The notes beneath the pieces were generated by a model. The model was given only the letters and a program-made list of their open reading frames with translations. It was not told the origin of the DNA and did not search any database. Source: Bombiscardovia coagulans (GTDB taxonomy: Bacteria; Actinomycetota; Actinomycetes; Actinomycetales; Bifidobacteriaceae). From it: a DNA stretch of 64,000 bases. The translations under genes were made by a program, and so were the position numbers. Location of the stretch: NCBI RefSeq assembly GCF_002259585.1, contig NZ_MWWS01000008.1, positions 1-64,000 of the forward strand, written 5' to 3'. The stretch's first letter is position 1; the number at the start of each line of letters is the position of its first letter. This document shows, piece by piece, positions 3,377 to 38,724 of this stretch.

Positions 3377-3385
3377 TTACTTCCA

Positions 3386-11988: not shown

Positions 11989-12003
11989 TATGTTTTGACA
12001 AGC

Positions 12004-12037
12004 GGGTGCACCACTGTTGAGAGGTGCACCCTTTCTT
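12004..12037 (+). terminator. Rho-independent terminator after the nucleoside hydrolase/MFS unit
   Basis: A perfect 9-bp stem, GGGTGCACC (12004-12012) with GGTGCACCC (12023-12031), then TTTCTT. It starts 15 bases after the MFS stop and just before the convergent flavoprotein gene. Confidence 0.9.
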
Positions 12038-12047
12038 ATGCTGGCAA

Positions 12048-14741: not shown

Positions 14742-14769
14742 GTTGCCGGTTTCCTGTTCTCAAATAGGG

Positions 14770-15501: not shown

Positions 15502-15524
15502 AACCCTTTCTTTCTTCTGTGTCT

Positions 15525-16562: not shown

Positions 16563-16591
16563 GATGTGTCCTCCTTTTCATAGATACTATT

Positions 16592-17275: not shown

Positions 17276-17303
17276 AATAATCACCTCAAGTGCAGGATTA
17301 GGC

Positions 17304-17720: not shown

Positions 17721-17816
17721 ATTCGCCCCTTTTTTGCTTTTGTGGAAAACTCAGCGCCAGCGAGTTCCGCGAACCAGATAACACACAGCACCAGTTACTA
17801 GTAAAACCGGTACTGA

Positions 17817-17856
17817 GTGAGCGTTAAGTGAACATCTCCCTCACCTAACGCTCACC
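17817..17856. promoter_or_regulatory. Divergent operator with 11-bp-spaced direct repeats
   Basis: Two halves form an inverted repeat: GTGAGCGTTA (17817-17826) with TAACGCTCAC (17846-17855), plus GTGA/TCAC inside. Each half is itself a direct repeat with 11-base period: GTGA at 17817 and 17828; CTCACC at 17840 and 17851. One helical turn between half-sites is how OmpR/PhoB-family regulators bind. The site lies between the envelope operon and the OmpR-type regulator gene, so control of both is likely. Confidence 0.6.
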
Positions 17857-17927
17857 TTTATGAGGCACAATGGGATGAGATATTTATTCGATAACAAAGG
17901 TCAACTGCATAACAAAAAGGATTGGCA

Positions 17928-18584: not shown

Positions 18585-19879
18585 AAATTCACCATATAAG
18601 ACCTCATGGCTTTCGCACCAAACTCGCCCTAGAGGTTGGCCTTCTCTTTCTGACAATGCTTGCCTTGGCCATAGTTGTGCAAAATATTTCGCTAGATCGT
18701 GCATTTAGCCGTCAGATAACAGTCGGTCACAGTGTTGGAACCGAATCACTACCAGATACTCCCAATGATTCAGGGAACCAAGATGATATTAAAAACAAGA
18801 ACGAAGCATGCCAAGGGCATGGGTGCCCACAGGCAGCTGAACCTGGAATTGACGACGCTTCCCCACATCAGGAACATGAAGACAATAAGGGAACAACGCT
18901 CAGCGGTGAAGTTCAAGTGGTCAAAGACTCAGTTACGACATGGATGTGGTATAGCTCACTAGCCGTCTTTGCTCTCTTTGGGCTACTGGCATTAACTCTC
19001 ATATGGAAATTGACTGGAACGTTGGTTGAACAGCTGGATTCCATCAGCCAGCAAGCCGCCAACCTAGACCTAGATCATCCAGGTGGGCGCATCTTCATTG
19101 ACAATCCCCATGACGAAATAGCTTCCATGGCCAATACCCTCAATGCCATGCTCAATCGTATGGAAAAATCCAATCAAGCCCAAAAAGCATTCGTCCGTAA
19201 CGCCTCACATGAGCTCAGAACCCCTATCACAACTATAGGCACCAGCCTAGAGTCCTTGATTAACCAAAAGCGAATCAGTCCAGATGCTGAGCCCATGGTC
19301 AAAAGAGCTATCGAATCCAACCACAAATCCGCAAACCTAATCACCGTTCTACTGGAACTTTCACGAATCCAGGGCACTACCATTAGTAAAAGCCAGCCGA
19401 TTGACGTGGACAAGTTAACACGAAGCCTGTTACTGAGCCATCAACAGGAGATACAAGATCAAAAGTTAACGCTTGACTTATCCGGCCTGCTCCCGACCAG
19501 GGTTATTACCGATCCGCAATATGCAGAAATCGCTTTAGACAATCTCATTCGCAATGCCATCGTCCACAACATCCCAGAAGGAAACATCACCATTTCCACG
19601 GAATTCGTTAATACTGACAGTGAAAATAAGTCGATATCTCTTACTATCGCCAATTCTACTGCTGAGGAGCAACCCGTTGGAATGGTAGACCCAGAAGAGT
19701 TAACTAGTTGCTTTTACCGTGGAAACTCAACTCGGATAGCCAATAAACCAGGATATGGTCTCGGTCTTTCCATCGTGAGAGAGATCGCAAATATCCTCGG
19801 TCTTAGACTATCCCTGCGGTATCCTGAAGAAGGTGCTTTTCAAGCCACTATGGTTTTCCCGAACGGCGATCTCCAGTGA
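18581..19879 (+). CDS. Sensor histidine kinase (HAMP, HisKA, HATPase_c)
   Basis: 432 residues. Two membrane helices (about 14-35 and 122-144) flank a 90-residue outer segment that is polar and contains His, Cys and acidic residues (ACQGHGCPQ, SPHQEHED), suggesting ligand or metal sensing. Then HAMP, the phospho-acceptor His210 in NASHELRTP, and the ATP-binding domain with NLIRNAIVHN, a G1-like stretch and GYGLGLSIV. It overlaps the regulator gene by ATGA. With the shared operator it probably senses an envelope signal and controls the ABC/lipoprotein operon. Confidence 0.93.
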   Translation: MKIHHIRPHGFRTKLALEVGLLFLTMLALAIVVQNISLDRAFSRQITVGHSVGTESLPDTPNDSGNQDDIKNKNEACQGHGCPQAAEPGIDDASPHQEHEDNKGTTLSGEVQVVKDSVTTWMWYSSLAVFALFGLLALTLIWKLTGTLVEQLDSISQQAANLDLDHPGGRIFIDNPHDEIASMANTLNAMLNRMEKSNQAQKAFVRNASHELRTPITTIGTSLESLINQKRISPDAEPMVKRAIESNHKSANLITVLLELSRIQGTTISKSQPIDVDKLTRSLLLSHQQEIQDQKLTLDLSGLLPTRVITDPQYAEIALDNLIRNAIVHNIPEGNITISTEFVNTDSENKSISLTIANSTAEEQPVGMVDPEELTSCFYRGNSTRIANKPGYGLGLSIVREIANILGLRLSLRYPEEGAFQATMVFPNGDLQ

Positions 19880-19968
19880 GACTTTCATGTATCGCCCCAT
19901 CCTCGGACTAGTTATTGTAGTGGGAGCACGTACAATACACTATTTCAAAAGAGGAAGGCCGGGGACAA

Positions 19969-20043
19969 ATGAACAAGGCAGAACAACGAAGAAAAACCAG
20001 AGAAGCTCTTCTGAACCGATTACTGTATTGGAAAAGTAAATAA
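19969..20043 (+). CDS. Possible 24-residue basic peptide (uncertain)
   Basis: An ORF starting MNKAEQRRKTREALLNRLLY, 90 bases after the kinase stop on the same strand. Purine-rich AGGAAGG lies about 10 bases upstream and GGGG 4 bases upstream. It is strongly basic and could be an amphipathic helix. There is no family match I can name, so it may be chance. Confidence 0.2.
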   Translation: MNKAEQRRKTREALLNRLLYWKSK

Positions 20044-20082: not shown

Positions 20083-20763
20083 TTACCGTCTCGCATTGAG
20101 TCCGGCCTTATACCAGAGAACTGCTATGTTCACCCTTTCTTTAACACCCAGTTTATTAAGTATCCGACTTACTGTCTTTTTAACGGAATCACTCTGAATA
20201 CTTAGTTTTTCTCCGATTTCGGCATTAGTCATACCTTCACAAACAAGAGATGCGACCTCAAACTCCCGTCTGCCGAGCTTCGCAAATTTCTTTCGAAGTT
20301 CCATCTCTTCGTACGTCGAGACCTGCACAGAAATCCCTCTTTTGATTACTTCTCCTGTAATACGTGGGGTGAGTATGGCATCGCCAGCATGCACTGATCG
20401 AATTGCTTTACACAGGTCCGCAGTCTTTACATCTTTAAGCAAGAATCCTGAAGCTCCTGCACTAAGGGCACCGAAAGCGTAGTCGTCTTGGTCATATGTC
20501 GTCAATATGACAACTTTGATCGACGGGTAGTTTTCTTTGATAGCACTTGTAGCATCCAAACCATCCATAACTGGCATGCGTACATCCATCAGTATTACGT
20601 CAGGAAGGGGTTGTTTATGCTTGTTAGATGAGTCAAGAAAATCGAGAGCTTCCTGCCCGTTTTCTGCTTGCCCTATCACTAGCAAGCCTGCGTCTTTAGC
20701 AACCATGAGAGCGAAACCCATTCTGGCAGGACGCTGGTCATCAACGATCATAACGCGAATCAT
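20083..20763 (-). CDS. NarL/LuxR-type response regulator
   Basis: 226 residues with AAGGAG before the ATG. The receiver has IVDDQ, phospho-acceptor Asp60 in DVILMDVRMPVMDG, and KDVKTADL at the Lys position. The C-terminal LuxR helix-turn-helix is LGRREFEVASLVCEGMTNAEIGEKLSIQSDSVKKTVSRILNKLGV. Its start lies inside the end of the kinase gene (23-base overlap). It probably drives the ABC transporter genes upstream, as in peptide-antibiotic resistance modules. Confidence 0.95.
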   Translation of the reverse strand: MIRVMIVDDQRPARMGFALMVAKDAGLLVIGQAENGQEALDFLDSSNKHKQPLPDVILMDVRMPVMDGLDATSAIKENYPSIKVVILTTYDQDDYAFGALSAGASGFLLKDVKTADLCKAIRSVHAGDAILTPRITGEVIKRGISVQVSTYEEMELRKKFAKLGRREFEVASLVCEGMTNAEIGEKLSIQSDSVKKTVSRILNKLGVKERVNIAVLWYKAGLNARR

Positions 20764-22018
20764 GTTGCTCCTTACTGTCTGTCAATTTAGTGAGCGAAGG
20801 AATAGTGACTCGTAGGATCCAACCGTTGTAGGTCGGACCAGCTTCAAATGTCCCTCCATGTTTCCTTATCGTTCCACCAAGCCGTTTAAGTCCGGTTCCG
20901 TCGTCAAGTGTCTTCTTCATAGAATTGAGACCATTGTTTCTGATAGCTATGGTTATGGCACCTTTATCGTCATGGTCCCAGGAGATTACGATGCGGTCTA
21001 CCGCTTGTCCGTGACGGATGGCGTTGGTTATGCCTTCTCGAGTGACACTAAAGCTCAGGTCTGCTTGAATAGGATCTTGGGGTCTACGCCCTGTTTCAGT
21101 TAAAGCGACAGTAATACCTAGTCGTCTTACGTGGCTAAGTATCGGATTGATGTCATCCCAATAATGATACTGTCCTTCCGACACTGAGTGCTGAATAGCT
21201 GAGTTTGTTGTCGATTGCAGTGCTTTTACTGCCATTCTGGTGTCGGTCAGCCCTTGCCGTGAAAGGTCGTTAATCATAGCGATAGCTTCATCGATTTCCG
21301 GTCTTCCCGTGGCTCGATCAAGTCCTTCAGACAGAGCGATGATTGCGGTCAAGTCGTGACCAACGCTGTCATGGAGCTCTGCTGCGATTCTGGACTGATT
21401 AACAGCTTGTTCGTGTTCTTGAGCTAAATGCATGCTACGTTCACGCTCATCCTGAAGTGCCTGATCAGACATGCGTCGCTCCCTCTGTGTTCTGGAAACA
21501 AAGCCAAACCCGACACAGAGAACAAAACACAGAGAGGTTGGATATAGCAGACCAGTAAAGCTCCCGTCTTTATGCCATAGGGTTGCTGAGGCTGCACTGG
21601 CTACACCAAACAGCCCAACAGCAAGAAGAGCGATAAGCAGTGTCGTTGGTTTTTTGATTTCCACCGTGCTGGCATAGAGGTTGACGATCCACAGCAAGAA
21701 CAGGTACGTATATGCTGAACCGTAGATTATTGCTGTGAGTAACATGAAAAAAGTAACTATTAATAAACTTGCTGTTGGTCGGCTCCGCCGTTGGCTAAGC
21801 ACAGCTACCGACAGAATAATGATGGCAACAAATGAGGGCATCCCCCATCCAGTGGTGGACAGAATCTGCCAGAGAGTCTTGTTAGCACTGTGAGGCGCGA
21901 GAGTCAATCTTGTCAGCAACATGGTTTCATACATAGCGCAGATAAAAACCATTACATAAGCGGTAGTTGGACGGTTCCATACTGCAATCCAAGCCTGAAG
22001 CTTTCCTTTCGGCTTCAT
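20741..22018 (-). CDS. HisKA_3-type sensor histidine kinase
   Basis: 425 residues from the ATG at 22018, which has GGGGAGG upstream; a frame starting ten codons earlier is less likely. Five or six N-terminal membrane helices (to about residue 175) lead into a helical linker and the dimerisation domain with phospho-acceptor His216 in AAELHDSVGHDLTAII. The HATPase part has REGITNAIRHG and DDGTGLKRLGG. There is almost no extracytoplasmic domain, the layout of intramembrane-sensing kinases that partner with ABC transporters. It lies 160 bases after the last permease gene. Confidence 0.93.
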   Translation of the reverse strand: MKPKGKLQAWIAVWNRPTTAYVMVFICAMYETMLLTRLTLAPHSANKTLWQILSTTGWGMPSFVAIIILSVAVLSQRRSRPTASLLIVTFFMLLTAIIYGSAYTYLFLLWIVNLYASTVEIKKPTTLLIALLAVGLFGVASAASATLWHKDGSFTGLLYPTSLCFVLCVGFGFVSRTQRERRMSDQALQDERERSMHLAQEHEQAVNQSRIAAELHDSVGHDLTAIIALSEGLDRATGRPEIDEAIAMINDLSRQGLTDTRMAVKALQSTTNSAIQHSVSEGQYHYWDDINPILSHVRRLGITVALTETGRRPQDPIQADLSFSVTREGITNAIRHGQAVDRIVISWDHDDKGAITIAIRNNGLNSMKKTLDDGTGLKRLGGTIRKHGGTFEAGPTYNGWILRVTIPSLTKLTDSKEQHDSRYDR

Positions 22019-22178
22019 TACACCTCCCCATTGCTCAGTTTTTAGCACTACTTCATGCCACCCTCAATCAAAATGGTCCCAAAACCACTTATAAGACGAT
22101 CATCCAGCAAGTCAAACACATATTTTTGTTGGTCGCAACGCTGTATATTCTCTTCTGACTGTACCTAGCATAACTTCG

Positions 22179-22979
22179 TCAGACCGCCTTTTTAGCTAAC
22201 CTACGAAAAATGAGACCACTAATAAGTACCCAGACAGCTGCAAGCACGGTTGATGCCACGAAGGAGGAAGCAGATGCGATGTTACCAAGATCCCTAACTG
22301 CTGATGCGGTTGTAATCAAGGCAAGCGGGTAAGGAAGAGCCAGGGAAGGTGCAGCAACAGATATGGCACAGCCTGCCAAGGTGAGCAGGAGCAGAATGGA
22401 CATAGTAGATGCAAAAGATTCGGTCCTAACTGCGATAGCTTGAGTAAGAGTCATAATTGCCCAAACAGCCAAAGTCATGGGAAAAGCACGCAGAAAGTAG
22501 GGAACTAATTCTGATAGGGAGAAATTGCCAACCAATCGGCCTACCAAAATGAATTCGATCTCGAAAATTGTGATTGTCAAAAAGGAAGCAAGCAGTCCGT
22601 GAAGCATCTTACCAACGATTGCGGTGCCGGCAGTACCCGAAGCGTTCAGACGCTGCCAGTTGCGCCCCTTATGCTCATTAGCTTCCACCTGAGCAGCGAA
22701 GGCGGCAACTAGAAGGGGCATGAAGACCATGCTAGGCAGAAGGACTGCCTGTCCCCACACAGCACTCCAGGTAACACCTTGAGCATGAAAATCCTCCTGA
22801 TAGCTTATATACTGGTCCCAACCATTGAACATGCCAATTGCATCAAAAAGAATCGTGGCCAACCAGTACCAGAGGTTACCAGCCTTACGGATCTCCCAGT
22901 TCAGAGCCGCCAAAATAGAAGGTTGATTGCGAACTATGTTACTTGTTGCTGTCTTAAATGCCACAGCTTGTTTGCTCAT
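22179..22979 (-). CDS. ABC-2-type permease, lantibiotic-immunity (LanE/LanG) like
   Basis: 266 residues from the ATG at 22979, overlapping the upstream stop by ATGA, with AAAGGAG upstream. About six membrane helices. The pattern LNWEIRKAGNLWYWLATILFDAIGMFNGWDQYI, then EANEHKGRNWQRLNASG, matches LanE/LanG-type subunits: the E-H/N-K-x-x-x-W motif after helix 2 is typical of that group. Such proteins expel lantibiotics or bacitracin-like peptides from the membrane. Third gene of the ATPase-permease-permease set. Confidence 0.85.
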   Translation of the reverse strand: MSKQAVAFKTATSNIVRNQPSILAALNWEIRKAGNLWYWLATILFDAIGMFNGWDQYISYQEDFHAQGVTWSAVWGQAVLLPSMVFMPLLVAAFAAQVEANEHKGRNWQRLNASGTAGTAIVGKMLHGLLASFLTITIFEIEFILVGRLVGNFSLSELVPYFLRAFPMTLAVWAIMTLTQAIAVRTESFASTMSILLLLTLAGCAISVAAPSLALPYPLALITTASAVRDLGNIASASSFVASTVLAAVWVLISGLIFRRLAKKAV

Positions 22980-23827
22980 TGGTGTGACTCCTTTACCTTG
23001 ATGATAACTAGCGAGATAGCAGTCCAGGCGACGCAAGCAAACAGACTAGCCCCTACTTGAATCCATGGGCTGGCGACCAGTGTCATCTTGGCATAACCGT
23101 CAGGACCTGAGGTGGTCAGGAATGGGTTAGCTGCCGAACTGATACCTGCCGGAAAGAGCCAGCCCAACCGAGTCACGTTCATGGGACCTAAACCAGTACC
23201 AATTAGCCCAGCTATTACACCCACACCCAGGCCAACTGCTTGTTTACTCACAGTCAGAGAGAGCATAAGCTGTATAGCTGTAACGGCTACTGAAGCAAAG
23301 AAGACAGTGAGAACGGGAGCAGATATTACCACTGTGAAGTCACCATTAAGAACGAAGCCTTTAGCCCGAGCAACCAGAGGTATCCACACCAAAGGGATTA
23401 TAAAACTCATGGAGAGCGTTACAGCAGCTACAGCCATCTTGACAAGAAACTGGCCGGTCTCATTTTGACCCAGCGACCGCCACTTGAGATCCATGCGTTC
23501 ACTGGAATCAATAAAGACCATACGACTGGTAAGCAAGGCAGCCAGAATTGGGGCAAGTAAACCGAAGGTCTGGTAGACTTCGCCTTGAGCCAGGGTAATA
23601 GTGCGCATGGCCAGGCTACTAGAACCGTCCCTCTTTATAAAAGCAAACGCCGCCCAAGCTGAGACCAAGAACATCATGCCAAACGCCATCCACCAGAAGG
23701 ATGACCCCTTCAACTTGCGCACCTCCAAGGCCAGCAGCACCCCAGGGCCGTCCGCATGGGACACTACTGGAACACCATAAGGGTGTGGTTGTACAGGTCT
23801 CATCGAGGTCATTGTTGACGTATTCAT
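22976..23827 (-). CDS. ABC-2-type permease, lantibiotic-immunity like (second subunit)
   Basis: 283 residues and about six helices, with a longer polar N-terminus (about 30 residues) than its partner. It shows the matching layout: VLLALEVRKLKGSSFWWMAF, then DSSERMDLKWRSLG before helix 3. Four-base overlaps with the ATPase on one side and the second permease on the other show tight coupling and equal output. The two permeases are divergent paralogues. Confidence 0.83.
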   Translation of the reverse strand: MNTSTMTSMRPVQPHPYGVPVVSHADGPGVLLALEVRKLKGSSFWWMAFGMMFLVSAWAAFAFIKRDGSSSLAMRTITLAQGEVYQTFGLLAPILAALLTSRMVFIDSSERMDLKWRSLGQNETGQFLVKMAVAAVTLSMSFIIPLVWIPLVARAKGFVLNGDFTVVISAPVLTVFFASVAVTAIQLMLSLTVSKQAVGLGVGVIAGLIGTGLGPMNVTRLGWLFPAGISSAANPFLTTSGPDGYAKMTLVASPWIQVGASLFACVAWTAISLVIIKVKESHQ

Positions 23828-24783
23828 TGCACCCCTCCCTGCTGCACGCGTATCTGGGGATTCTCTACTAATTCCAGGAATGCCTGTTCTAGGCTTTTGC
23901 GCTCGGAAGCCACTCGATAGATTTGCAAACCTTGAGAAACTAGCCCTTCCACTAGCTTCCCTATCTGATTATCAGAAAACTCAGGAATGCGCAGGACACC
24001 GCTTTGACGAATATATCCGTAATCAATACCGTTATTTTCCAGGATGTTGACTGCCAAACGAGGGTCGGATACTCTCAGATCGATATGTCCCTCCTCGCGC
24101 AAATTGTCGAGCGACCCTTGGTAGAGCAGGTGTCCACCGGAAATGATGCCGACTACCGGAGCCATCTTCTCAATTTCAGAAAGGATGTGACTGCTGATAA
24201 TAATAGTGACACCTTCGCTTCTTGCCAGCTCCATGATCATTTGCCGCACCTCAACTACAGCTTCGGCATCCAAACCGTTAGTCGGTTCGTCCAGCAGTAG
24301 GAGTTCAGGCTGAGAAATCAAAGCCATAGCGATACCCAGACGCTGTTTCATGCCCAGTGAATAGTCTCTCGCTTTTTTGTCTTCATGCCCATGCAGTCCC
24401 ACTTTATCCAGGACTGCAAGCGCTGACGAGCGTGGAAGCCCTAAATAATCGGAGACCATCCTACAGTTATCAAGTCCAGACAGGCCCGGGTAGAAGCTGG
24501 GTCCTTCAATCATGGAACCCACCCGCCCCGGCTGGATGCGACTCTTGGATCCTACCTGTTGTCCTAGCATCCACATCCTGCCCGAACTCGGTGTAGTTAA
24601 CCCAAGCAGCAACTTCATTGTCGTGGACTTCCCAGCACCATTAGGCCCCAGCAAACCATAGACACCACCAAAGGGTACCTGTAGATTCAGACCGTTCACT
24701 ACCTTGTAATTTCCATAGGATTTCACTAAATTCTCTGTACATACAGCCATTTGTGATAGAGATCCTCGGTAACCGCTCATCAT
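23824..24783 (-). CDS. ABC transporter ATP-binding protein (BcrA/LanF-like)
   Basis: 319 residues from the ATG at 24783 (AAAGGTGG just upstream; ATG at 24780 equally possible). Walker A GPNGAGKS (45-52), signature YSLGMKQRLGIAMAL, Walker B LLLLDEPTNGLD and switch His in SSHILSEI. The LGMKQRL form of the signature and the roughly 100-residue C-terminal extension are typical of BcrA/LanF-type ATPases. First gene of the ATPase-permease-permease-kinase-regulator run. Confidence 0.92.
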   Translation of the reverse strand: MMSGYRGSLSQMAVCTENLVKSYGNYKVVNGLNLQVPFGGVYGLLGPNGAGKSTTMKLLLGLTTPSSGRMWMLGQQVGSKSRIQPGRVGSMIEGPSFYPGLSGLDNCRMVSDYLGLPRSSALAVLDKVGLHGHEDKKARDYSLGMKQRLGIAMALISQPELLLLDEPTNGLDAEAVVEVRQMIMELARSEGVTIIISSHILSEIEKMAPVVGIISGGHLLYQGSLDNLREEGHIDLRVSDPRLAVNILENNGIDYGYIRQSGVLRIPEFSDNQIGKLVEGLVSQGLQIYRVASERKSLEQAFLELVENPQIRVQQGGVQ

Positions 24784-25397
24784 TGCCACCTTTCCACACA
24801 ACCTTTAGTTCTATGGAAGCTCCCCGCACGAAACTACGCAATGAGAAAAACGAATTTGTACCCTTGAGAGGACATACGGTTGATTACATTACATCTCAGA
24901 GAACATTAAAGCTGATTGAACAAACGTTTCCTAAGAGTGTTCAACATCAACTAATGTCGATTACATAAAGCTGGGTTACTAGAGGCCGTTATTACAGATA
25001 TAAGAGCCAACAACTTGCAAGGTCGCATCTAGCAGGAACGCTTCATCCTTACATCTTGGTCTCAATAACATTACATGTCTCTTCGCCTTCAACCCAACGA
25101 TCTGTTACCAGCAAACACAGATTTTGCCAAACTATCGTACAGTTGTCGTGCTTTTACCAATGCTGTACACAATAAAAAATATCTGTCGTCCCTTGGTGTT
25201 TACCTCGAATGGTTTATCTGAAATGCCAGACAGCATCCCGAGAAACCTATAGAATCTAAACCATTGAACCTTCACTGATAATCTCATAAAAAGACGTTCC
25301 TGATTGATAAGCACAATGACGTCCTAACTGACTGGTTAAGCAAAAATTGATAGCTTGCATTAGGGGGGGGGGAGGGCACACTGTTATTGGTAAGCAA
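24784..25397 (-). other. Intergenic region with poly-G tract and no supported gene
   Basis: About 610 bases. It must hold the promoter of the BcrA/LanF-like operon near its left end. A run of ten G (25363-25372) followed by AGGG lies 25 bases left of the decayed ABC-2 permease stop. No frame here has both a ribosome site and family resemblance. Confidence 0.5.
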
Positions 25398-26061
25398 TTA
25401 ACGACCACCTCTCACATCCCAGCGAAACAGTTTGAGTACCACAAACATCGACACCTCTAGTCAAGCGCAGCACACGCCAAGACCGGGAAAACGAGCACAC
25501 TTAATCCTTGGTAGCTGCCAAAAGTCATACCGTTGGCTTGCATAGTGGCGTGAACAAAATCATCTCAATACCACATGGGTCGCATAACCTCGGCTAGGTA
25601 ATCAACAGGAAGAACTTACTTAGCGTTCGCTGGGACGATGGAACAGCCCAGAAAGGCATGAACACTCCAGACAAGAACATGAGAATAAGCGCTGGCACCA
25701 ATAGTATCATCTGGGAAACGTCTGCAGATGGAATGAAAGTCGAATACGTCACTCCGATAACAACACAGAGCATAGCAACCTAACACCGCCACTAAAAGAA
25801 CTCCAGGAATATTGGCTGGTGCTTTGAGACCGAAAAAAGAGCACCGCGGATAGCATCAAGATGGCCTGGCATACAAGGGCGATAACAAGTCCCGACAAGG
25901 CATATCCTAATAGGACGACACCATCGGACTTTCCCCTGAGCCGGATACGTTTAAGCAAACCAAAATCACGCTGCGATGCAATGTCTCCTGCGACCTTAAT
26001 ACCTCCGTATGCAATATCCTAGCCTCCTAGCATGCATAGACAGAAAACTGGATTGTTTCCT
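25398..26061 (-). pseudogene. Decayed ABC-2-type permease
   Basis: Fragments of one permease appear in order but in different frames. First comes DIAYGGIKVAGDIASQRDFG with LLKRIRLRGKSDGVVLLGYA and a helix, near 25.86-26.05 kb. Then IGVTYSTFIPSADVSQMILL and FLSGVFMPFWAVPSSQ near 25.63-25.76 kb. Then LPVDYLAEVMRPMWY, a stop, DDFVHATMQANGMTFGSYQG and a last helix, ending MFVVLKLFRWDVRGGR before the stop at 25398. The G-G-x-x-V-A-G-x-I-A-x-x-R-x-x-G-x-L-K-R core and the RWD end match the intact permease at 26543-27298 in kind. At least two frameshifts and one stop make it non-functional. The N-terminal third is missing or unrecognisable. Confidence 0.75.
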
Positions 26062-26074
26062 ATACATGTACGGA

Positions 26075-26329
26075 TTACGATATCGATGTATCCTGGTGTT
26101 TGTGGTCGGATTCAGAAATACTGGTCACAGACTGGTAATCTGAGAGCAGGGTTCCTATAGCAGAGAAGTCTATCCTAGTTTGGGTATGAACTTTTTGCAT
26201 GATGTCCAACAAAGCAATTGTCGATGCTGGTGCTTTCTTCGAAGCAGCATTAATCATACCCCATATTGTCTCCACCACTACGGGCTCGAAGTCGTGGGGA
26301 CTGTGTGCATACCCAGTAACTTGGCTCAT
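26075..26329 (-). CDS. Hypothetical 84-residue protein (doubtful)
   Basis: From the ATG at 26329 (AAGGCA about 8 bases upstream) the frame reads MSQVTGYAHSPHDFEPVVVE and continues through TIALLDIMQKVHTQTRIDF to the stop at 26075. It is soluble, with no membrane segment or cysteine, and I recognise no family. It sits between the decayed and the intact ABC-2 permease genes, where nearby sequence is degraded, so it may be a gene remnant rather than a gene. Confidence 0.3.
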   Translation of the reverse strand: MSQVTGYAHSPHDFEPVVVETIWGMINAASKKAPASTIALLDIMQKVHTQTRIDFSAIGTLLSDYQSVTSISESDHKHQDTSIS

Positions 26330-26542
26330 AATGATTGCCTTCATAGCAATTGAACGCTAGTGGAAAAACAATCACAGTTGACACCACCCCGTTAAGCAAC
26401 CCCCGTACTGCCACGAGATCTATAGCCACAAGTAGCTCGTTCCCAACTGCGTCTATATGTGTGCTTATTTTCACCACACTGTTAGAGACAGTGCCTTACA
26501 CATGTTTCTTCACAGCAAGTTGAAGTATGAGCAACTAATAAC

Positions 26543-31265: not shown

Positions 31266-31559
31266 ATCCTTCATACCTTTCGTAAGAGCTACAACGCCCC
31301 CATTCGTTGCATGACATCGATGACATACCAACTAGCATCAATTTGACAGTTCGGTACAGCATTAATTCTAGCAAAAGCAAATGTCAGTTCGTACTAACTT
31401 ACCGGACGCGCAATGCCGTCTTATACACTTTTACAAAGAAACAGGTCAGAAGAGCTCTGCCGCTCTTTTGAATCCCTCCCCCCCAACTGTCTATGCTCCC
31501 ACTGAGCTGACCACGATTGGTGTAACTAACAGGTCATTCTTCAGGGTTAAAGGGTGATA

Positions 31560-31618
31560 GTGGTCTTCTCAGTAGACTCCTTGACAGCGTCAATTTATAC
31601 CTACTTGAAGAAGACCAC
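31560..31618. repeat. Nested inverted repeat
   Basis: Outer arms GTGGTCTTCT (31560-31569) and AGAAGACCAC (31609-31618) are perfect 10-mers. CAGTAG and CTACTTG continue the pairing with bulges, and the loop holds TTGAC-AGC-GTCAA. Three nested pairing layers in 59 bases could fold as RNA or mark protein binding or an element end. Confidence 0.55.
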
Positions 31619-31940
31619 ATTATTCCTGCCGGGGCAATACGGTTATAAATGTTCTATGGATTTGACTACAGGTGCTTCTGAGCTGATTGCATGCCTTGCA
31701 GACTCAGTGAGTGGTGGAAATTGGAACTCATGGTTTCCTCTACCCACAGGTAATTGCAGCAACTTATCCACGAATAGGCATCTTAGATGAGAGATCTTGA
31801 CACTGCAAATTTCCAACATTTTTGCGAAAACTTAGAACTGTTGCAACAAACTTGAGAACTTATCACATTTCACAGCTCCATTTACACGATACTTCAGAGC
31901 ACTTCTTTTCCAAAGAATAAGAGTTTGTATAAACTCTTTG

Positions 31941-31964
31941 ATATAATAATAATTATTATTATAT
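31941..31964. promoter_or_regulatory. 24-bp perfect AT palindrome, candidate ArsR operator
   Basis: From 31941 the sequence reads ATATAATAATAA and then its exact reverse complement to 31964. It contains a TATAAT (31942-31947) and ends 16 bases before the arsR ATG. ArsR-type repressors bind AT-rich dyads over their own promoter, so self-control is likely. A fully A/T palindrome can also arise by composition, though 24 bp is long for that. Confidence 0.55.
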
Positions 31965-31980
31965 GAATAGGAGTATCGGT

Positions 31981-32565
31981 ATGAAAAACTTAAAGGAGAT
32001 CTCGGATGTTGGTGCCTTTAAAGCTCTATCAAATCCATTGAGAATGCGGATATACTATCTGCTACAGTCACGCGAATCAGCCACAGCTGTAGAACTCGCG
32101 GATACACTCGGCCTTGATTCAGTTCTGGTGAGCTATCACCTTAGAAAGTTAGAACATTTCGATTTTGTCACATCTCGCAGTACCGGCCTGCCTTACCGAC
32201 AAAAGCTATGGGAACCTACCTCCCGCGGATTCATAGATGCCTCTGGCGGTACAGATAACCTAGGAGATTCAGTAGGTCAAGCCATCGTCTCCAACGACAA
32301 TGCACATCTCAGAACCTTTCTAGAAGGTTTCGATGAAGAGACTAACAAATGGAAGAATGCAGCATTCATCACAGACCATTTACTCACGCTTAATGCTGAG
32401 CAGATGGTGGAATTTCGCGAAGAGTTGATGGCTCTTCTCGACCGTTGGAAATCGAAGAGCACTTCAACCAAGAAACAGACCACAAATACAGTTGAGGCAG
32501 ACGCTAAAACTGATGATGCCCGAAAGATTCTGGTGATGGCATATGGATTCCCTTTCATCCCCTGA
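31981..32565 (+). CDS. ArsR/SmtB-type winged-helix regulator with long C-terminal tail
   Basis: 194 residues from the ATG at 31981 (TAGGAG 6 bases upstream; an ATG 18 bases earlier lies in the palindrome). Residues about 10-70 form the winged helix: GAFKALSNPLRMRIYYLLQSRESATAVELADTLGLDSVLVSYHLRKLEHFDFV. The remainder is helical, about 120 residues, without the paired cysteines of metal-sensing members, so the ligand is probably not a metal; related regulators include the HTH_20 group. The MFS gene starts inside its 3-prime end, so the two are co-translated. Confidence 0.88.
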   Translation: MKNLKEISDVGAFKALSNPLRMRIYYLLQSRESATAVELADTLGLDSVLVSYHLRKLEHFDFVTSRSTGLPYRQKLWEPTSRGFIDASGGTDNLGDSVGQAIVSNDNAHLRTFLEGFDEETNKWKNAAFITDHLLTLNAEQMVEFREELMALLDRWKSKSTSTKKQTTNTVEADAKTDDARKILVMAYGFPFIP

Positions 32566-33781
32566 CAGCGATACCATTCGAAGGCGCACCAGCATAGTCT
32601 GCTGGGGTTCAAATGTCTTACTTGGAGGCGTGGCTGACCAGATATTTTACGTGGCATTGTCTTGGCAGTTGAGCCAGGCATCTAGCGCTGCCACGCTTGG
32701 TTTGACAATGACATTGAATGCTGTGTGCAGGATCGCATTTCTCCCCATTGGAGGAGTTGCAGCAGACCGTATAGGGCACAAGCGCATGAGTATACTGACC
32801 GAAAGTATAAGATTGACCGTCTTCATTCTGGGAATGTGCTATCTTATGCTCGGATTCGGATCGCCTGACGCAAGATTCCTTATCCTATTTGCCATTTTCC
32901 TCGGATTGGCAGACGCATTCTACCTCCCGTCCACGAGCGCCCTTATAGGCGAGGTGGAGGAATACATATCCTTATCTTCAGCAGTGTCTGCACGATCACT
33001 CTTGCAAAGAGGAGCCTTTATTATAGGCCCCGCCTTGGGAGGCAAACTTATAGCAAGCTCCGGCCTTGCTATCACACTAGGCGTTGCAGGACTCAGTTGC
33101 ATACTGTCTTTACTAGCCTTGTTTATACTCAGAAGTGCACCGCCAGAAAAAACGACAGTAGAGAAAGCCTCGTTACTTACTGATTTTTCACAGGGCCTAA
33201 AGCATGTTATTACAGGTCATAGTGTATTTTCAGCTTTCCTCCTTATCATCATCACTGAATTTATTTTCGAAGGCCTATTCGATGTCGGTGTACCACTCTT
33301 AGTTTCATCACAAGGGTGGGATTCCAACATGTTAGGTTCTCTGCTCAGCCTATTTGGAGTTGGCGCTGCAATTAGTGCCCTAGTTACAGGCAAACTATTC
33401 CGAGGGCGTTTGTCTATGTCCTTCGCTTTTAAAACCACTTGTATGTTCGGCGTATTTATTCTTGCCATGGGATTGTTAAGCAATCAAATTCTTGTCATGG
33501 CCTGTAGCATTATTGCTGGATTGTTGTGCGGGGCCAGTTCTATTGCCACTAACTACGTAATTTTTGACAATACCAGCAAAGAACAGTTAGGACGAGTCAG
33601 CAGCATGACAGCTCTTGCGTCCAATGGAACTGCTCCCCTTTCCTACATGGTTGTGGGTTTTGCAGCGGGAAAGATAGGTATCAACATGACCTTCGTCATT
33701 GGTGGTGCACTTCTACTGTCGTCCGTTCCGATAATCTGGCTAATGTTACAACTTCGCTCAAATCAGCGCAATACCCTCTGA
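32543..33781 (+). CDS. MFS efflux transporter, candidate exporter of the peptide product
   Basis: 412 residues and 12 helices. N-terminal half shows GGVADQIFYVALSWQLSQASSAATLGLTMTLNAVCRIAFLPIGGVAADRIGHKRM, in which GGVAADRIGHKRM is the MFS loop 2-3 motif. It looks like the DHA3-type (MefA/MacC-like) exporters, to which microcin C exporter MccC also belongs in the broad sense. It overlaps arsR by 23 bases and its last 24 bases overlap the end of the convergent MccB-like gene. Export of the cluster product or self-protection is inferred from position. Confidence 0.85.
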   Translation: MDSLSSPDSDTIRRRTSIVCWGSNVLLGGVADQIFYVALSWQLSQASSAATLGLTMTLNAVCRIAFLPIGGVAADRIGHKRMSILTESIRLTVFILGMCYLMLGFGSPDARFLILFAIFLGLADAFYLPSTSALIGEVEEYISLSSAVSARSLLQRGAFIIGPALGGKLIASSGLAITLGVAGLSCILSLLALFILRSAPPEKTTVEKASLLTDFSQGLKHVITGHSVFSAFLLIIITEFIFEGLFDVGVPLLVSSQGWDSNMLGSLLSLFGVGAAISALVTGKLFRGRLSMSFAFKTTCMFGVFILAMGLLSNQILVMACSIIAGLLCGASSIATNYVIFDNTSKEQLGRVSSMTALASNGTAPLSYMVVGFAAGKIGINMTFVIGGALLLSSVPIIWLMLQLRSNQRNTL

Positions 33782-34807
33782 AATACGCATAGTATCAACG
33801 TTCATTAACATCGAACGACCCTCTATTGCGGCACTGCCTGTACACAACCATTGAATTAGCTGACCGACAGCTAATGAGCCAAGCGCATAGCATGACCACA
33901 CGTTGTTAGCAATGCTGTCCGATTTTTCATCAATAGCTCTTGAGAAAGATTCTGATTCTTCCCATTTTTTTACAAGCAGATCGCGATATTTACAATACCC
34001 ACCTGTAATATTAGGAACATAAAGTGGACCCACCCTAATTACAGGAGCTGAATTACTAACAGAGAGATAAGGTACACCAAGCTCCATGCATGCATCGTCC
34101 ATCCAATGCTCAATCTTATTCGCCGGTTCGTCAGCTGCGAGAACCGCGATGTCCGCACCTTCAAGCAAAGTAAGCGCATTGCAGCAATTAAGATACTTGG
34201 CTACAGGTGTCACTTTGACATGCGGATTAATCTTGCTTATAAGAGTTTTTAATGCCATTACCTTTTGAATTCCAATATCCGTCTCACTGTACGCGATCTG
34301 CCGTCCAAGGTTAGTCATATCCACGTGATCTGAATCAATGAGCGTTAACGAACCGATCCCAACACCTGCCAGCATCTGTGCTATTGGAGATCCTGCCCCT
34401 CCAACGCCAACAATCACTACATGCTTCTTCGATAAAAATGCCTGAATATCGTGCGGAGTACCTGAGGCAAACATGTTCTGTTCAAAATAAAGCAATTGCC
34501 TTGAATAACGGTCTTCAATATCCGGAACAAACAAACCAGTATCTTCCTTAACCAAAATCCCCGCACGAATCAGTTCATCAATAAAGTTTTCGACCTCACG
34601 AGCCTTAAGTGTATCGAACTGACAGCAAACTTTTGCAACCACCTCTTCCGGCTCTGTGTCCGAGGCGAATAACTCAAGAACCATTCTATTAGACTCATTT
34701 GGCCTTTGGATACGATATAGGAAGTCCTTTGCTCTGGGAACAATAAAAAGATCCCCCATACTTCCAATAAAATAATCACCACCAGAGTTGATATGGTATC
34801 GTGTCAT
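33758..34807 (-). CDS. MccB-like adenylating E1 (ThiF/HesA) enzyme with N-terminal peptide-binding domain
   Basis: 349 residues, the length of E. coli MccB. Residues 1-95 look like the winged-helix peptide clamp (RRE-type) and precede DRYSRQLLYFEQN. The E1 adenylation core follows: VVIVGVGGAGSPIAQMLAGVGIGSLTLIDSDHVDMTNLGRQI, with the glycine loop 134-139, Asp158/160, Asn166, Arg169, Lys182 and Asp226 in AADEP. VGPLYVPNITGGYCKYRD parallels the same place in MccB, but the first zinc cysteine is Gly and no C-terminal CxxC pair exists. AGAGGGG precedes the ATG. MccB adenylates the C-terminal Asn of a heptapeptide; here the preceding gene encodes a 20-residue peptide. ThiF, MoeB or HesA are alternatives, but no sulfur-carrier genes are nearby. 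Confidence 0.85.
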   Translation of the reverse strand: MTRYHINSGGDYFIGSMGDLFIVPRAKDFLYRIQRPNESNRMVLELFASDTEPEEVVAKVCCQFDTLKAREVENFIDELIRAGILVKEDTGLFVPDIEDRYSRQLLYFEQNMFASGTPHDIQAFLSKKHVVIVGVGGAGSPIAQMLAGVGIGSLTLIDSDHVDMTNLGRQIAYSETDIGIQKVMALKTLISKINPHVKVTPVAKYLNCCNALTLLEGADIAVLAADEPANKIEHWMDDACMELGVPYLSVSNSAPVIRVGPLYVPNITGGYCKYRDLLVKKWEESESFSRAIDEKSDSIANNVWSCYALGSLAVGQLIQWLCTGSAAIEGRSMLMNVDTMRISEGIALI

Positions 34808-34833
34808 TATTTATTTCCCCTCTCATTAAAGTT

Positions 34834-34862
34834 GGAGGTGCCAATACGGAATTGACACCTCC
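34834..34862 (-). terminator. Hairpin between peptide gene and MccB-like gene (attenuator or stabiliser)
   Basis: Stem of 12 pairs with one G-T, loop of five bases: GGAGGTG at one end, CACCTCC at the other. It begins 23 bases after the peptide stop and is followed on the minus strand by AACTTTAATG, not by a full T-run. It may partly end transcription, or protect the peptide mRNA, so that peptide is made in excess of enzyme. A terminator hairpin in the same place is known in the E. coli microcin C operon. Confidence 0.7.
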
Positions 34863-34885
34863 AAGCACCTCTATACAGAGGCAGA

Positions 34886-34948
34886 TTAGATTCCCTTGTT
34901 GAACTCTGAAACCTCAGTTGGCTTGCTTGTCTTTTCCATGTTCGACAT
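34886..34948 (-). CDS. 20-residue putative precursor peptide of the MccB-like cluster
   Basis: The ATG at 34948 has AAAGGAGGTGATTCTA directly before it, an almost perfect match to the anti-SD with 8 bases of spacing. The peptide is MSNMEKTSKPTEVSEFNKGI, then TAA. It starts within the last 12 codons of the methyltransferase gene in another frame, and the hairpin and MccB-like gene follow. Position and ribosome site match a RiPP precursor; the peptide is hydrophilic, without Cys, and ends in Ile rather than Asn. A conserved domain cannot be expected at this length. Too short for most gene callers. Confidence 0.7.
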   Translation of the reverse strand: MSNMEKTSKPTEVSEFNKGI

Positions 34949-35744
34949 TAGAATCACCTCCTTTCTTAGTTAAAGATTTACGCGCAAGAAAAAGAAGCTT
35001 CGTAACCTTATCATTTCTATACTCACGATAAAGATTGCCCTCTTGATCCATACCAGTTACAGACACAAGGTCAAAACCACTTTCAACAAGACACTGGGTA
35101 ATAAGTTCGGACGAGTAATAGTACTCGGATTGTGTTGTTTCGTGTACTATAGTTGCATTACCGCGTTTATCAATGACACTGATTTTGACAGTCGCAGGCA
35201 AATGTACATCGGGTGAATAGCGAGACAAAGGTTTAATAACAACCAAAGAATCACCTCGACTTGTCAGAGAAACTTCTCCCATGTCATGTTCAAAAATCGA
35301 AACAGTATTTAGATCAAATTGGAAAAGTCCATTCGGTTTAAGACCTAGAAAAACATTCGAAAATGCTGATCGTATATCTTCAACTGAGGAAAATGTATTA
35401 ATAACATCGTCGATCGCAACAGCATAATCAGCCTTCTCAGTTAAGCTACTACGACGAATGTCGGCTAGCCTATACTGTATAGAAGGCGGACCTTGCAACA
35501 CTGCCTTATCAAGCATCCCTTGACTCAGGTCTGTACCAATGACTTTCCATCCCGCATCAGCTAGACATCTAGCCATAAGTCCAGTACCCGTTCCGATATC
35601 CCACGCCAATCCATGCATCTTCGCATTCGTCCTATGAGCAGATGCTAGTTGATCGAGAATCTTAAACCACGCCTTGTAGTCATCATTTGCTTTGAAGATC
35701 TCATAGACCTCCGAAAAGGAGTCATAATCTCGAGCAATCGACAT
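34914..35744 (-). CDS. Class I SAM-dependent methyltransferase
   Basis: 276 residues with AAGGAG 7 bases before the ATG. SAM-binding motif I is AWDIGTGTG (47-55), followed by GWKVIGTDLSQGML, YRLADIRR, YAVAIDDVINTFSS and a C-terminal YYYSSELITQCLVESGF. It opens ARDYDSFSEVYEIF, as in small-molecule and RiPP methyltransferases. The last codons (KKGGDSNVEH...) double as the ribosome site and start of the 20-residue peptide gene. Methylation of the peptide, its adenylate or its C-terminus is inferred. CmoB/MccS-type carboxymethyl transfer is less likely because no CmoA-like partner is present. Confidence 0.88.
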   Translation of the reverse strand: MSIARDYDSFSEVYEIFKANDDYKAWFKILDQLASAHRTNAKMHGLAWDIGTGTGLMARCLADAGWKVIGTDLSQGMLDKAVLQGPPSIQYRLADIRRSSLTEKADYAVAIDDVINTFSSVEDIRSAFSNVFLGLKPNGLFQFDLNTVSIFEHDMGEVSLTSRGDSLVVIKPLSRYSPDVHLPATVKISVIDKRGNATIVHETTQSEYYYSSELITQCLVESGFDLVSVTGMDQEGNLYREYRNDKVTKLLFLARKSLTKKGGDSNVEHGKDKQAN

Positions 35745-36948
35745 ATTCTAACTCCTTATTAGATAAAAATAATATTTATTAAATAATAACCATAATTCGG
35801 CATTATGCCATCGGCTTAATTCCTGTAATTTTTAAAAATGCGATTAATTAAGTATTTAACATTCACAATCATTCAGTTTCCATACCAACGAAACTCTGAA
35901 TTTAAGACCAAGCATCATTATTCACATATTTGCATCTCTAAAGATGTGTATTTATGCATCTAATAACACTTTCACAGATACGAATCTATTGTGAAGTTTT
36001 TATTTTAAACTATTAAGTCACGAGTTTCAGTGGAAAATATATATTCCCTTTTTATACAGCATCGTTATATTCGATCATTCTAGCGGACTAAATAGCCAAA
36101 GCTGGCTTGCACTACCAAACGAGATATTTGAACTATTAAAGGCATTGTCCCACCGCAAGAGTTTTGTACACAAAACTTCACTGTTGAGATTGCGCTATGC
36201 AACGGGTGGCATCAGGCCAAGTGCTCAGCAAAGTATCTACTTTTTGGACGCATATATATAAGTATGAACATATACTTAATAATTGTTAAACAGATGATTA
36301 GAATACTGCGCCTTTCCCTGGAGCACTCGGTTACACCCGCACCCAAGCACAAGCGCAAACGTCGGTTTTTTTCAAAGGAACATATTATTCTTGTGTTACA
36401 GTTTTTTGAGATAGTTTGTGTTGCCCTAATCGAATTTTGTAAAGTTTACCAATGGTAAACCCGGCAAGCAGCCAATCCGTATGCGAGGAACACAAAACAG
36501 TCGCTACAGTAGCTTGCATATACACTCTCTATGGGCCACCAACAAACTATTGCTACCCTCAATACTGCACGGTTAAACCAGACTGTGGTGATACAAGGCT
36601 AGTGTTTTATGTACTAAAGGTGATTACAAATGCTGAATTAGGTTACCATTATGAACTTTTTAAAATCGTCGGAAGCATTCAAAGCAGATGTAAATCAAAT
36701 CCAAATACCCCGCAACATGGTTTTTCATCAGCAGCACCATTCCACGAGTTAAACTACAACAATCTGTACAGGCGGCAGCCTTCACCTGAGAAACTATAGC
36801 GACAGCAACCATACAAGGCCTGCATTTCAGGAAAACAAGGTTGGATGCCATCGAAAACAGACATGAAAGTTGAGACACTTCTTATGGATAGTATATATGA
36901 AGAACCGCGGCCGGTATTCCCGAACCGCGGTACATTCGCTCTTCTATG
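35745..36948. other. AT-rich gene-free region with palindromes, next to tRNA-Lys
   Basis: About 1.2 kb. It holds the methyltransferase promoter at the left; the sequence near 35762-35785 is A/T only. Three dyads are visible: GTTTTGT-AC-ACAAAAC (36161-36176), AAGTAT...ATACTT (36260-36277) and GTTTACC-AAT-GGTAAAC (36444-36460). Open frames at 36264-36458 and 36452-36799 lack ribosome sites and family resemblance. Position beside a tRNA suggests an island edge, but no second tRNA end copy was found. Confidence 0.5.
36904..36931 (-). terminator. Probable terminator of tRNA-Lys
   Basis: ACCGCGG (36904-36910) pairs with CCGCGGT (36925-36931), loop of 14 bases, followed on the minus strand by TCTTCATAT. 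It lies 18 bases after the tRNA 3-prime end. The T-tract is imperfect. Confidence 0.5.
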
Positions 36949-37022
36949 TGCCCCCGCGGGGGCTCGAACCCCGGACACGCTGATTAAGAGTCAGCTGCTC
37001 TAGCCAACTGAGCTACAGGGGC
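36949..37022 (-). tRNA. tRNA-Lys (anticodon CTT)
   Basis: Full cloverleaf: acceptor GCCCCTG with CGGGGGC (one G-T), D arm GCTC...GAGC, anticodon stem GCTGA/TCAGC with loop CTCTTAA (anticodon CTT), variable GTGTC, T arm CGGGG-TTCGAGC-CCCCG, discriminator A. CCA is not encoded. Confidence 0.97.
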
Positions 37023-37146
37023 GTTGGCACATTTGAGAACCAAAAGACTACTATACAACATTTCTTGCAGACTGCAAGGCGCCCCGTATTCGGCGTGCCG
37101 AGACGAGCGCCAGACGACGCTCTTACTTGATTTTCAAGCTTGGTTC

Positions 37147-38724
37147 TCAGACGATTTTAGGCATTGGCGTGGTGAGTGACGTGGTGAGATTGACCTGCAC
37201 GAGTCCTGCACCGGTGTGAACTTCCATCTTTTTCAGAGTGACCGTACGTTCATTCTCTGGTGCATTATCATTATCTGTCATGGTGGCAGGAGATTTAACT
37301 GCTACTGGGACCATGTCATTCAAATCCAGCCCCTCCCCCTGGCACAAAGACCGGGCTTGTGCTAGAGAATCCGCAAATAAGGGCCCTTCTAGGACACGCT
37401 CTGCCGGTACCCCGTAAGCGCTGCGAGCAATCCACCGCATCTGGTCAACAATATCTATACCTTGGTGACTTTGCAGATCCTGTACTACTTGAGCTTGGGC
37501 GGTCTGTGCACCAGACTCTGCATCCAGTGAGCCAGCAGGAACACCATCAGCAGTGACTCCCAGTGCAGTAATGAGGTCATTGAGCTGATCGCTCACCACT
37601 TGACCGCCATCACGGAAGAGATTACCAATAATCGGTCTTCTGAATCCTAGCTGCTGAGCCGTTTCGCGCAAATCGGGAATCTCACCGTCTTCACCCTCCC
37701 ATAAGTTCACCAGAGGGAAGGTCGCTATGCCCAGTCCTTCGAGGCGGTTGATATGGAAGGGGTAACGCCAACGTAGCGCTGGATCATCACGCCAGGTTGT
37801 AGCCCTGGTAACAACAACAGCAGCGGTAGGCCAAGCAGCACCGAATTCACGAGCCGCGATGTCGAGCCATTTTTGCGCACCAGCATCGGCACCGTATCCA
37901 GCCTCAACTACAACCACATCATGGAGAGCGCACGCCATTTCTACGCTCACTAGGCTTGGAATTCCCAGGGAAACATTGGCAAATGGCCCACAGTGCACAT
38001 AGACTGGAGAGCCTGCTTGCGTAGTCATATATGCAGGCTGTACCGCACCACCTAACATATTAGTAATACGCCACAAGTCAACGAATGAGCCAAAAGTGAC
38101 TGGTTTACCATCCTTAGTACCAGCAGTCATGGCAGCTACTCGTTGAGCAATCTCATCCATAGAGCGGGACAATACAACGATCTGCATAAGTTCGCAGGTA
38201 GGGGTGAGGACTACTCGTTCAGAACGATTACTTTTACCTCGATCTACTGCAATCTGTCGCAGGGAACGAGACGGTACTTCACTCACGCGCGGCAGCAGAA
38301 TAGTGTCAAGAAGTCCCTCGTCAGCAGCTTTTTCCGCAAAGGATACTAGCAGGTTCTGTGCATTCTCAATGGCTGCCATCTCTCCGCACAAACCCCAGTC
38401 CACCAATTCCGGGTGAGCCAGTGAAGCCTTACCGCCACCAGAAGCTCCGCCTTTGGATCCGGCTGCCGTTATGCCCATACTGGGTTGGCGTAGGACCGCA
38501 GCTGCATCAACACCGCGAGCACGCAAAGCGTCAATGAGGGCAATCGTGGTTGTCGTTTTACCCTCACCTCGGGAGGCCTTCAACGGTGTGTCAGCGGTAA
38601 CGAGCACCACCTTGCCCTGTTTGCGTCCTTCTTCTGGATGAGTCTTGAGATAGTCTAAGTACCCAAAAGCATCAATCTTGCTTACCAGACCATAGGGTTT
38701 CATGAAGTCTTCAAAAGTAGTCAT
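37147..38724 (-). CDS. fhs: Formate-tetrahydrofolate ligase
   Basis: 525 residues from the ATG at 38724 (GGGAG upstream; an ORF 11 codons longer is less likely). The monofunctional enzyme joins formate to tetrahydrofolate using ATP, giving 10-formyl-THF for purine and formyl-Met synthesis. P-loop TPLKASRGEGKTTTTIAL near residue 46, RQPSMGITAAGSKGGASGGGKA, the family signature with GPFANVSLGIPS, and a late GVPAERV. It is somewhat shorter than the usual 555 residues and its C-terminus is divergent (VHTGAGLVQVNLTTSLTTPMPKIV). Bifidobacteria depend on this enzyme with pyruvate-formate lyase as formate source. Confidence 0.95.
   Translation of the reverse strand: MTTFEDFMKPYGLVSKIDAFGYLDYLKTHPEEGRKQGKVVLVTADTPLKASRGEGKTTTTIALIDALRARGVDAAAVLRQPSMGITAAGSKGGASGGGKASLAHPELVDWGLCGEMAAIENAQNLLVSFAEKAADEGLLDTILLPRVSEVPSRSLRQIAVDRGKSNRSERVVLTPTCELMQIVVLSRSMDEIAQRVAAMTAGTKDGKPVTFGSFVDLWRITNMLGGAVQPAYMTTQAGSPVYVHCGPFANVSLGIPSLVSVEMACALHDVVVVEAGYGADAGAQKWLDIAAREFGAAWPTAAVVVTRATTWRDDPALRWRYPFHINRLEGLGIATFPLVNLWEGEDGEIPDLRETAQQLGFRRPIIGNLFRDGGQVVSDQLNDLITALGVTADGVPAGSLDAESGAQTAQAQVVQDLQSHQGIDIVDQMRWIARSAYGVPAERVLEGPLFADSLAQARSLCQGEGLDLNDMVPVAVKSPATMTDNDNAPENERTVTLKKMEVHTGAGLVQVNLTTSLTTPMPKIV

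Follow-up and report, generated by a model that had tools for sequence, protein, structure and literature searches.

What does the enzyme encoded next to a 20-codon reading frame of Bombiscardovia coagulans do to the peptide that this frame specifies? The question is raised by a compact cassette within a 64,000-nucleotide stretch of DNA from this bacterium (positions 1 to 64,000 of contig NZ_MWWS01000008.1, analysed as a whole and hereafter the window; the host genome comprises 1.74 Mb in 15 contigs). The cassette is best read as a rare MccB-related lineage of ribosomally synthesized and post-translationally modified peptides (RiPPs). In the mechanism that we favor, at a probability of about 0.52, its ThiF/E1-type enzyme (E1) would adenylate the C-terminal isoleucine of the short peptide and an internal nucleophile would capture the activated residue. 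The features of this actinobacterial cassette are as follows:

34914..35744, minus strand: class I S-adenosylmethionine (SAM)-dependent methyltransferase of 276 residues (Methyltransf_25, 1e-11), with counterparts in both relatives described below.
34886..34948, minus strand: open reading frame (ORF) for the candidate precursor peptide MSNMEKTSKPTEVSEFNKGI, 20 residues, behind the Shine-Dalgarno (SD) sequence AAAGGAGGTGAT, with counterparts of 19-20 residues in the corresponding position of two relatives.
34832..34864, minus strand: hairpin with a 14-pair stem and a 5-nucleotide loop, between the peptide stop and the E1 start.
33758..34807, minus strand: ThiF/E1-type adenylating enzyme of 349 residues, MccB-related (PF00899, 5e-36; best PDB match MccB).
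32543..33781, plus strand: MFS transporter (MFS_1, 4e-32).
31963..32565, plus strand: ArsR-type winged-helix regulator with the C-terminus ..PFIP (HTH_20, 4e-10).

Read in the direction of minus-strand transcription, the order is methyltransferase, 20-codon ORF, hairpin and E1; the 3' end of the methyltransferase gene overlaps the start of the peptide ORF by 35 nucleotides, and the arsR-MFS unit converges on the E1 gene from the plus strand, the MFS and E1 ends overlapping by 24 nucleotides. A preliminary description of 33758-35744 had listed these parts together with the arsR-MFS unit, and all of them are present; the view that they form a RiPP-like cassette built around a short peptide, with an E1 related to MccB and a gene for an MFS transporter, is supported. 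The hairpin, given there as 12 bp, exists with a longer stem of 14 pairs, one of them G-T. Of the two product types offered, the peptide-nucleotide is not supported: it requires a C-terminal Asn where all three known peptides end in Ile, the methyltransferase is not recognizable as MccD, and the MFS protein shows no similarity beyond chance to the microcin C exporter. The alternative of a related new class fits.

The cassette occurs in two further genomes. A full-length relative of the E1 (34% identity, 3e-56) was found in Olsenella sp. KGMB02461, the only one in 396 genomes of the phylum, and a second (3e-80) came from a profile search of 140 Atopobiaceae genomes; the genome of this third locus is probably O. 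uli (Olsenella uli), an identity that is itself inferred. Olsenella belongs to the Atopobiaceae, which share the phylum of the window's host and belong to a different class, and the three cassette genomes fall in three separate genus groups. Common to all three loci are the ArsR gene, the methyltransferase, an ORF of 19-20 codons, the hairpin, the E1 and the MFS gene. Both Atopobiaceae loci have the ArsR gene divergent from the methyltransferase, and their E1 and MFS genes are co-directional and overlapping; the window differs in that its arsR-MFS pair is turned round. Conservation extends to the accessory proteins: the methyltransferase is 27% and 35% identical to its two counterparts, the window MFS protein matches that of the Olsenella sp. 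cassette at 27% identity (E 1e-29), and the ArsR protein matches that of the probable O. uli cassette at 3e-24.

The searches behind these counts used overlapping sets of genomes, namely 189 of the host's family, 396 of its order, 396 of its phylum and 296 of its own class, in addition to the 140 Atopobiaceae, 246 of the Atopobiaceae class, and 138 and 65 of two other families of that class; the E cut-offs varied from 1e-15 to 1e-40. Across all sets, E1s of this clade occur in three distinct genomes. Weaker E1 matches were present in 71 of the 189 family genomes (the host's own included) and in four more genomes of the Atopobiaceae profile search; the surroundings of only a few of these were inspected, so that cassettes whose E1 has diverged further may have escaped detection. 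A strict-pattern scan of genome contigs matched 37 stretches, one of which was a relative; it did not return genome G964, although the E1 of that genome contains NLGRQIAY. Viral contigs yielded no relatives in the E1 searches or with the peptide-tail pattern, and plasmids and phages yielded distant E1s only, the best at 87% coverage and 28.6% identity.

The short ORF is considered real because of this cross-genome comparison and not from the window alone. The window has 11 ATG-initiated ORFs with 10-45 codons that follow an exact GGAGG, against 9.2 expected from Markov shuffles; taken alone there, the ORF is at chance level. The search for an ORF-hairpin-E1 arrangement proposed in the preliminary description finds the place, length and stop of the ORF conserved in both relatives. 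The three peptides are MSNMEKTSKPTEVSEFNKGI in the window, MDFIKEIEKQVNPAEIIKNI in Olsenella sp. and MTIEKDEKKVQASEIIKNI in the probable O. uli; when a single gap is placed behind the Met of the third peptide, M1, K9, E15, K18 and the C-terminal I20 are identical in all three. Trp, Cys and a Glu-Glu pair are absent from every peptide. The SD sequence AAAGGAGGTGAT of the window is replaced by AAAGGAGG in one relative and by AAGGGGGG, which is not GGAGG, in the third locus; with context, the ribosome sites read AAAGGAGGTGATTCTAATG (window), AAAGGAGGAACAACTGATG (Olsenella sp.) and AAGGGGGGTGCGCTATG (third locus). The overlap with the end of the methyltransferase gene is 35 nucleotides in Olsenella sp., as in the window, and takes the form ATGA in the third locus.

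The peptide tails are more alike than their shuffles. When the ORFs in the methyltransferase-E1 gap are compared between the three loci, their C-terminal 7-mers have three of seven columns identical; of 5000 shuffled triples, none reached three and seven reached two. The Atopobiaceae pair shares six of seven positions (shuffles as good, 0/5000), the window and probable O. uli share four of seven (9/5000), and the window and Olsenella sp., a pair taken without shuffles, share three of seven. This tail statistic was picked after the tails had been inspected. At the nucleotide level the Atopobiaceae tails, GAG ATT ATC AAG AAT ATC TAG vs GAG ATC ATC AAG AAC ATC TAG, differ at two third positions only, both synonymous.

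The window, the two relatives and the E. coli mcc operon all have a hairpin between the short ORF and the E1 gene, with differing sequences. The 141-nucleotide stretch that contains it in the window has z -2.54 against shuffles (2/200 as good); the corresponding values are z -2.45 (1/200) in Olsenella sp. and z -1.62 (10/200) in the third locus. A terminator scan did not list the window hairpin, where there is no T-run; a run of five T follows the hairpin in Olsenella sp. only among the three loci. According to excerpts of PMC6495379, termination at the hairpin of the mcc operon is driven by ribosomes that bind mccA, which leaves the peptide in excess; the shared layout therefore suggests the same purpose here.

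The E1 carries the motifs DRYSR, GVGGAG, NLGRQ and VGPLYVPNITG, as had been reported, and PF00899 is detected in all three members of its clade. Searched singly against the PDB, the window enzyme matches MccB best (1e-27), with MoeB (3e-20) ahead of PaaA (7e-16); a profile of the three members gives MccB 8e-39 and PaaA 5e-30, then Uba4, ThiF and MoeB. This profile comparison, which had been proposed in the preliminary description, thus places MccB ahead of PaaA. In a 29-row tree the three cassette E1s form one group (98/90), whose neighbor is an E1 from a Levilactobacillus brevis plasmid, on a long branch and with different gene neighbors. E. coli ThiF and MoeB fall in a separate six-row group (97/100), so the enzyme does not cluster with them, and E. 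coli MccB is weakly joined to two further E1s from the phylum (91/89). In this tree 10 of 26 inner branches are open; L008, L010, L011, L013-L019 and HesA were left out, L033 was dropped by the ORF filter, and MccB is represented by the 375-residue annotated protein, the PDB chain having 353 residues.

Nine residues of the E1 (G134, G136, G139, D160, N166, R169, Q170, K182 and D226 in window numbering) are invariant and intact in all 18 aligned E1s, and by analogy they would form the ATP/nucleotide site. The two CxxC motifs of ThiF and MoeB, which we take to be a zinc site, occur together in each of the E. coli enzymes ThiF, MoeB and MccB and in none of the three clade members; their cysteines are also missing from some other RiPP-type E1s (L021, L023 and L044). 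Cys306 (window 33890-33892) is found in all three clade members and in one of the 15 other aligned E1s. The similarity to E. coli MccB spans the adenylation domain together with the residues immediately preceding it. About 95 extra residues make up the N-terminus of the E1, and by position this region is likely to be a RiPP recognition element (RRE).

Other peptides beside MccB-like E1s were noted during the searches. In genome G048 of the window's family, a 25-codon ORF at L027 5075-5152 (minus strand), by the E1 of L002, lies behind AAGGAGGTGA and encodes MQDEAFMISEVNDPDICTAYRVGGG; it ends in three glycines, precedes the genes for an MccB-like E1 and an MFS protein, and is perhaps another E1-peptide class. 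On a Lactiplantibacillus plantarum plasmid (L024 4589-4774, plus strand), two near-identical tandem short ORFs ending ..HEEKNGSC are followed downstream by an MccB-like E1 gene and by one for an MFS protein. A second E1 layout is seen at L053 3739-6181 and L038 4091-7112 (both minus strand), where an E1 weakly grouped with MccB is accompanied by carboxypeptidase-like and PqqD-like proteins, both recognized by eye; L053 is from a genome of the window's genus and its E1 frame contains a stop, and L038 is from a genome of the Olsenella family and has a 22-residue ORF, MTTIEVKPVEEVSTTCHVDQHC, behind GGAGG.

The methyltransferase belongs to the broad Methyltransf_25/11 class, and its NCBIfam matches (among them BioC, UbiG, BchM and a daptide methyltransferase) place the window protein far below cut-off. 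As a candidate MccD it was rejected: BLASTP gives E 0.34, and hhalign gives a probability of 64% (E 6e-5) in an alignment confined to 54 columns around the SAM motif. A match with agnC3, which is carried on the agrocin 84 plasmid (26%, 7e-10), shows only that such methyltransferases occur in antibiotic clusters. The window MFS protein has no similarity beyond chance to the microcin C exporter MccC (BLASTP E 4.7). An S66 peptidase of the MccF type was not found in the host genome, 6 of 14 control genomes being positive; MccE was not searched for.

In the mechanism that we propose, the hairpin between the peptide stop and the E1 gene would let the precursor of 19-20 residues be made in larger amounts than the enzymes. 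This precursor would be held by the N-terminal domain of the E1 while the adenylation domain activates the carboxylate of Ile20 as an acyl-adenylate (acyl-AMP). A nucleophile within the peptide would then capture the acyl-AMP; the most plausible one is the invariant Lys18, i.e. Lys(-3), which would give a macrolactam, and capture by a backbone amide to give an imide, as in EnfB, is less likely. The methyltransferase would methylate the peptide, the MFS protein, which is probably an exporter/immunity protein, would export it, and ArsR would control the cassette. Internal capture is favored because the peptide lacks the C-terminal Asn side chain needed for a succinimide and P-N bond. Excerpts of PMC13255007 describe E. 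coli MccB acting on MccA-N7G to yield peptidyl-O-AMP still, which added thiols capture; loss of the Asn therefore leaves an activated C-terminus. On NWYFI, IndF adenylates the terminal Ile and links it to Trp as an amide (excerpts of PMC12150305), and EnfB uses one ATP to cyclize WWIVI at its C-terminus, the product retaining no nucleotide (excerpts of the review PMC12250964). The most specific version, in which the E1 joins Ile to the Lys(-3) side chain as a small C-terminal macrolactam, perhaps via Cys306, before methylation, is put forward tentatively.

Several observations weigh against this proposal. Invariance of residues is weak evidence because only three members are known, and a Glu-Lys lactam would be just as compatible with the invariant E15. 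Cys306 could provide a thioester step or serve as an alternative catalytic Cys. The profile signal for the RRE is weak (PqqD 0.013 and Lant_dehydr_N 0.05, residues 35-88, both below cut-off and in the window member only of the three), the hairpin of the third locus stands out less from its shuffles than the other two, and no peptidase gene was noticed within the cassette. AlphaFold models of the E1 and methyltransferase, built from two-row alignments, have a predicted local distance difference test score (pLDDT) of 40 and are unusable.

Of the other chemistries open to the E1, a lactam between side chains would use two of the conserved residues: the E1 would adenylate the gamma-carboxylate of Glu15 and Lys18 would attack it, forming an i to i+3 isopeptide. 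Such Glu-Lys isopeptides are otherwise made by graspetide ATP-grasp enzymes. E15 and K18 are identical in all three peptides and, in excerpts of the review PMC12250964, PaaA acts on core Glu residues and GrcB joins an internal Glu to Cys; however, the invariant C-terminal Ile and its fixed distance to the stop would be left unexplained, and we regard this route as unlikely. An outside nucleophile is less probable again: the E1 would convert the C-terminus to an amide, ester or thiocarboxylate, either directly or by way of a thioester at Cys306, a reading consistent with the occurrence of this cysteine in the clade and with the amidation carried out by EnfB if amines are present (excerpts of the same review), but no partner enzyme for the nucleophile or for sulphur was recognized in the cassette. 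Of these chemistries, the capture of activated Ile by the peptide itself is preferred.

Two readings would return the cassette to known families. Were it a true microcin-C-type system, the E1 would put AMP or CMP on the C-terminus and the methyltransferase would tailor the product; the SD-peptide-hairpin-E1-MFS layout is that of E. coli mcc and MccB is the best PDB match, yet this is improbable because Ile and not Asn ends all three peptides, and the failure to find an S66 peptidase in the host genome, a methyltransferase not recognizable as MccD and the absence of the CxxC cysteines from the E1 speak against it as well. Membership in microcin C was set aside on the C-terminal residue. Least credible by far is an enzyme of sulphur or cofactor metabolism of the ThiF/MoeB/HesA kind beside an accidental ORF: an SD-preceded ORF of this kind is expected by chance in the window alone, whereas the ORF is conserved across genera, no ThiS-like gene was recognized in the cassette, and the position of the E1 in the tree (from which HesA is missing) and its lack of CxxC cysteines led to the rejection of ThiF and MoeB. 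The refutation foreseen in the preliminary description, an E1 clustering with such enzymes and an unconserved ORF, is not what the data contain.

The surroundings of the cassette differ in composition: G+C is 44% in the cassette and 41% in the methyltransferase alone, against 48% in bases 1-20000 and 50% right of 37147. A tRNA-Lys gene lies near it at 36948-37022, and a tRNA was the only match in an Rfam scan of 31300-37200. No direct repeats of at least 18 bases were found in 18000-40000, and none flank the cassette. Elsewhere in the window, 20083-24801 (minus strand) encodes a response regulator, a HisKA_3 kinase, two ABC2_membrane_4-like permeases (one just under cut-off) and an ABC ATPase by Pfam, an arrangement that we take to resemble a lantibiotic-immunity transporter with a two-component system; next to it, 24900-26540 holds about 1.6 kb without a recognized intact gene, with pieces that by eye resemble a broken ABC-2 permease.

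With a 20-residue precursor and one E1, the proposed reaction is directly testable in vitro, and Olsenella and the host of the window are added to the possible producers. A literature search of open papers did not find the cassette named in any title or abstract opening among the matches listed. PMC12150305, in excerpts, presents a network of 27,400 RRE-ThiF proteins, which may already contain the E1 group of this cassette among its unannotated clusters.

Among known systems, the E. coli microcin C operon (mccA-mccB-mccC) is closest in layout, with an SD sequence, a very short peptide, a hairpin, an E1 and an MFS gene in the same order; on the ATCC 25922 plasmid (L043) these are AGGAGG, MRTGNAN, hairpin, MccB and MFS. 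All precursors of the MccB set in the excerpts of PMC6495379 end in Asn, the source of the P-N bond, whereas Ile stands at this place here; the present cassettes differ further in a methyltransferase that precedes the peptide and is not MccD-like, in the presence of ArsR, in an MFS protein without similarity beyond chance, whose gene is turned round in the window, and in E1s without CxxC cysteines. IndF (indolylamide) and EnfB (enterofaecin), the enzymes of systems known from Streptococcus pneumoniae and Enterococcus faecalis, resemble the proposed chemistry in that their precursors end in Ile and the C-terminal carboxylate is activated. The ind cluster also includes an M16 peptidase; compared by their descriptions in the excerpts and not by sequence, the IndF and EnfB precursors (NWYFI, WWIVI) need Trp, of which there is none here. 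PaaA (pantocin A) and GrcB (thiolactone) are RRE-E1 enzymes that modify short precursors, and PaaA ranks second among the solved structures matched by the three-member E1 profile; the pantocin core is Glu-Glu and that of GrcB is Glu...Cys, neither of which occurs in any of the three peptides. The absence of Trp, Cys and a Glu-Glu pair therefore makes indolylamide, thiolactone and pantocin-type products unlikely and, together with the missing C-terminal Asn, means that the E1 should do something else. The products of ThiF-like RiPP enzymes in the excerpts of PMC12150305 and PMC12250964, from few characterized examples, are phosphoramidates, a bicyclic core, a thiolactone, an indolylamide and an imide; a Lys(-3)-Ile bond would stand outside this described range.

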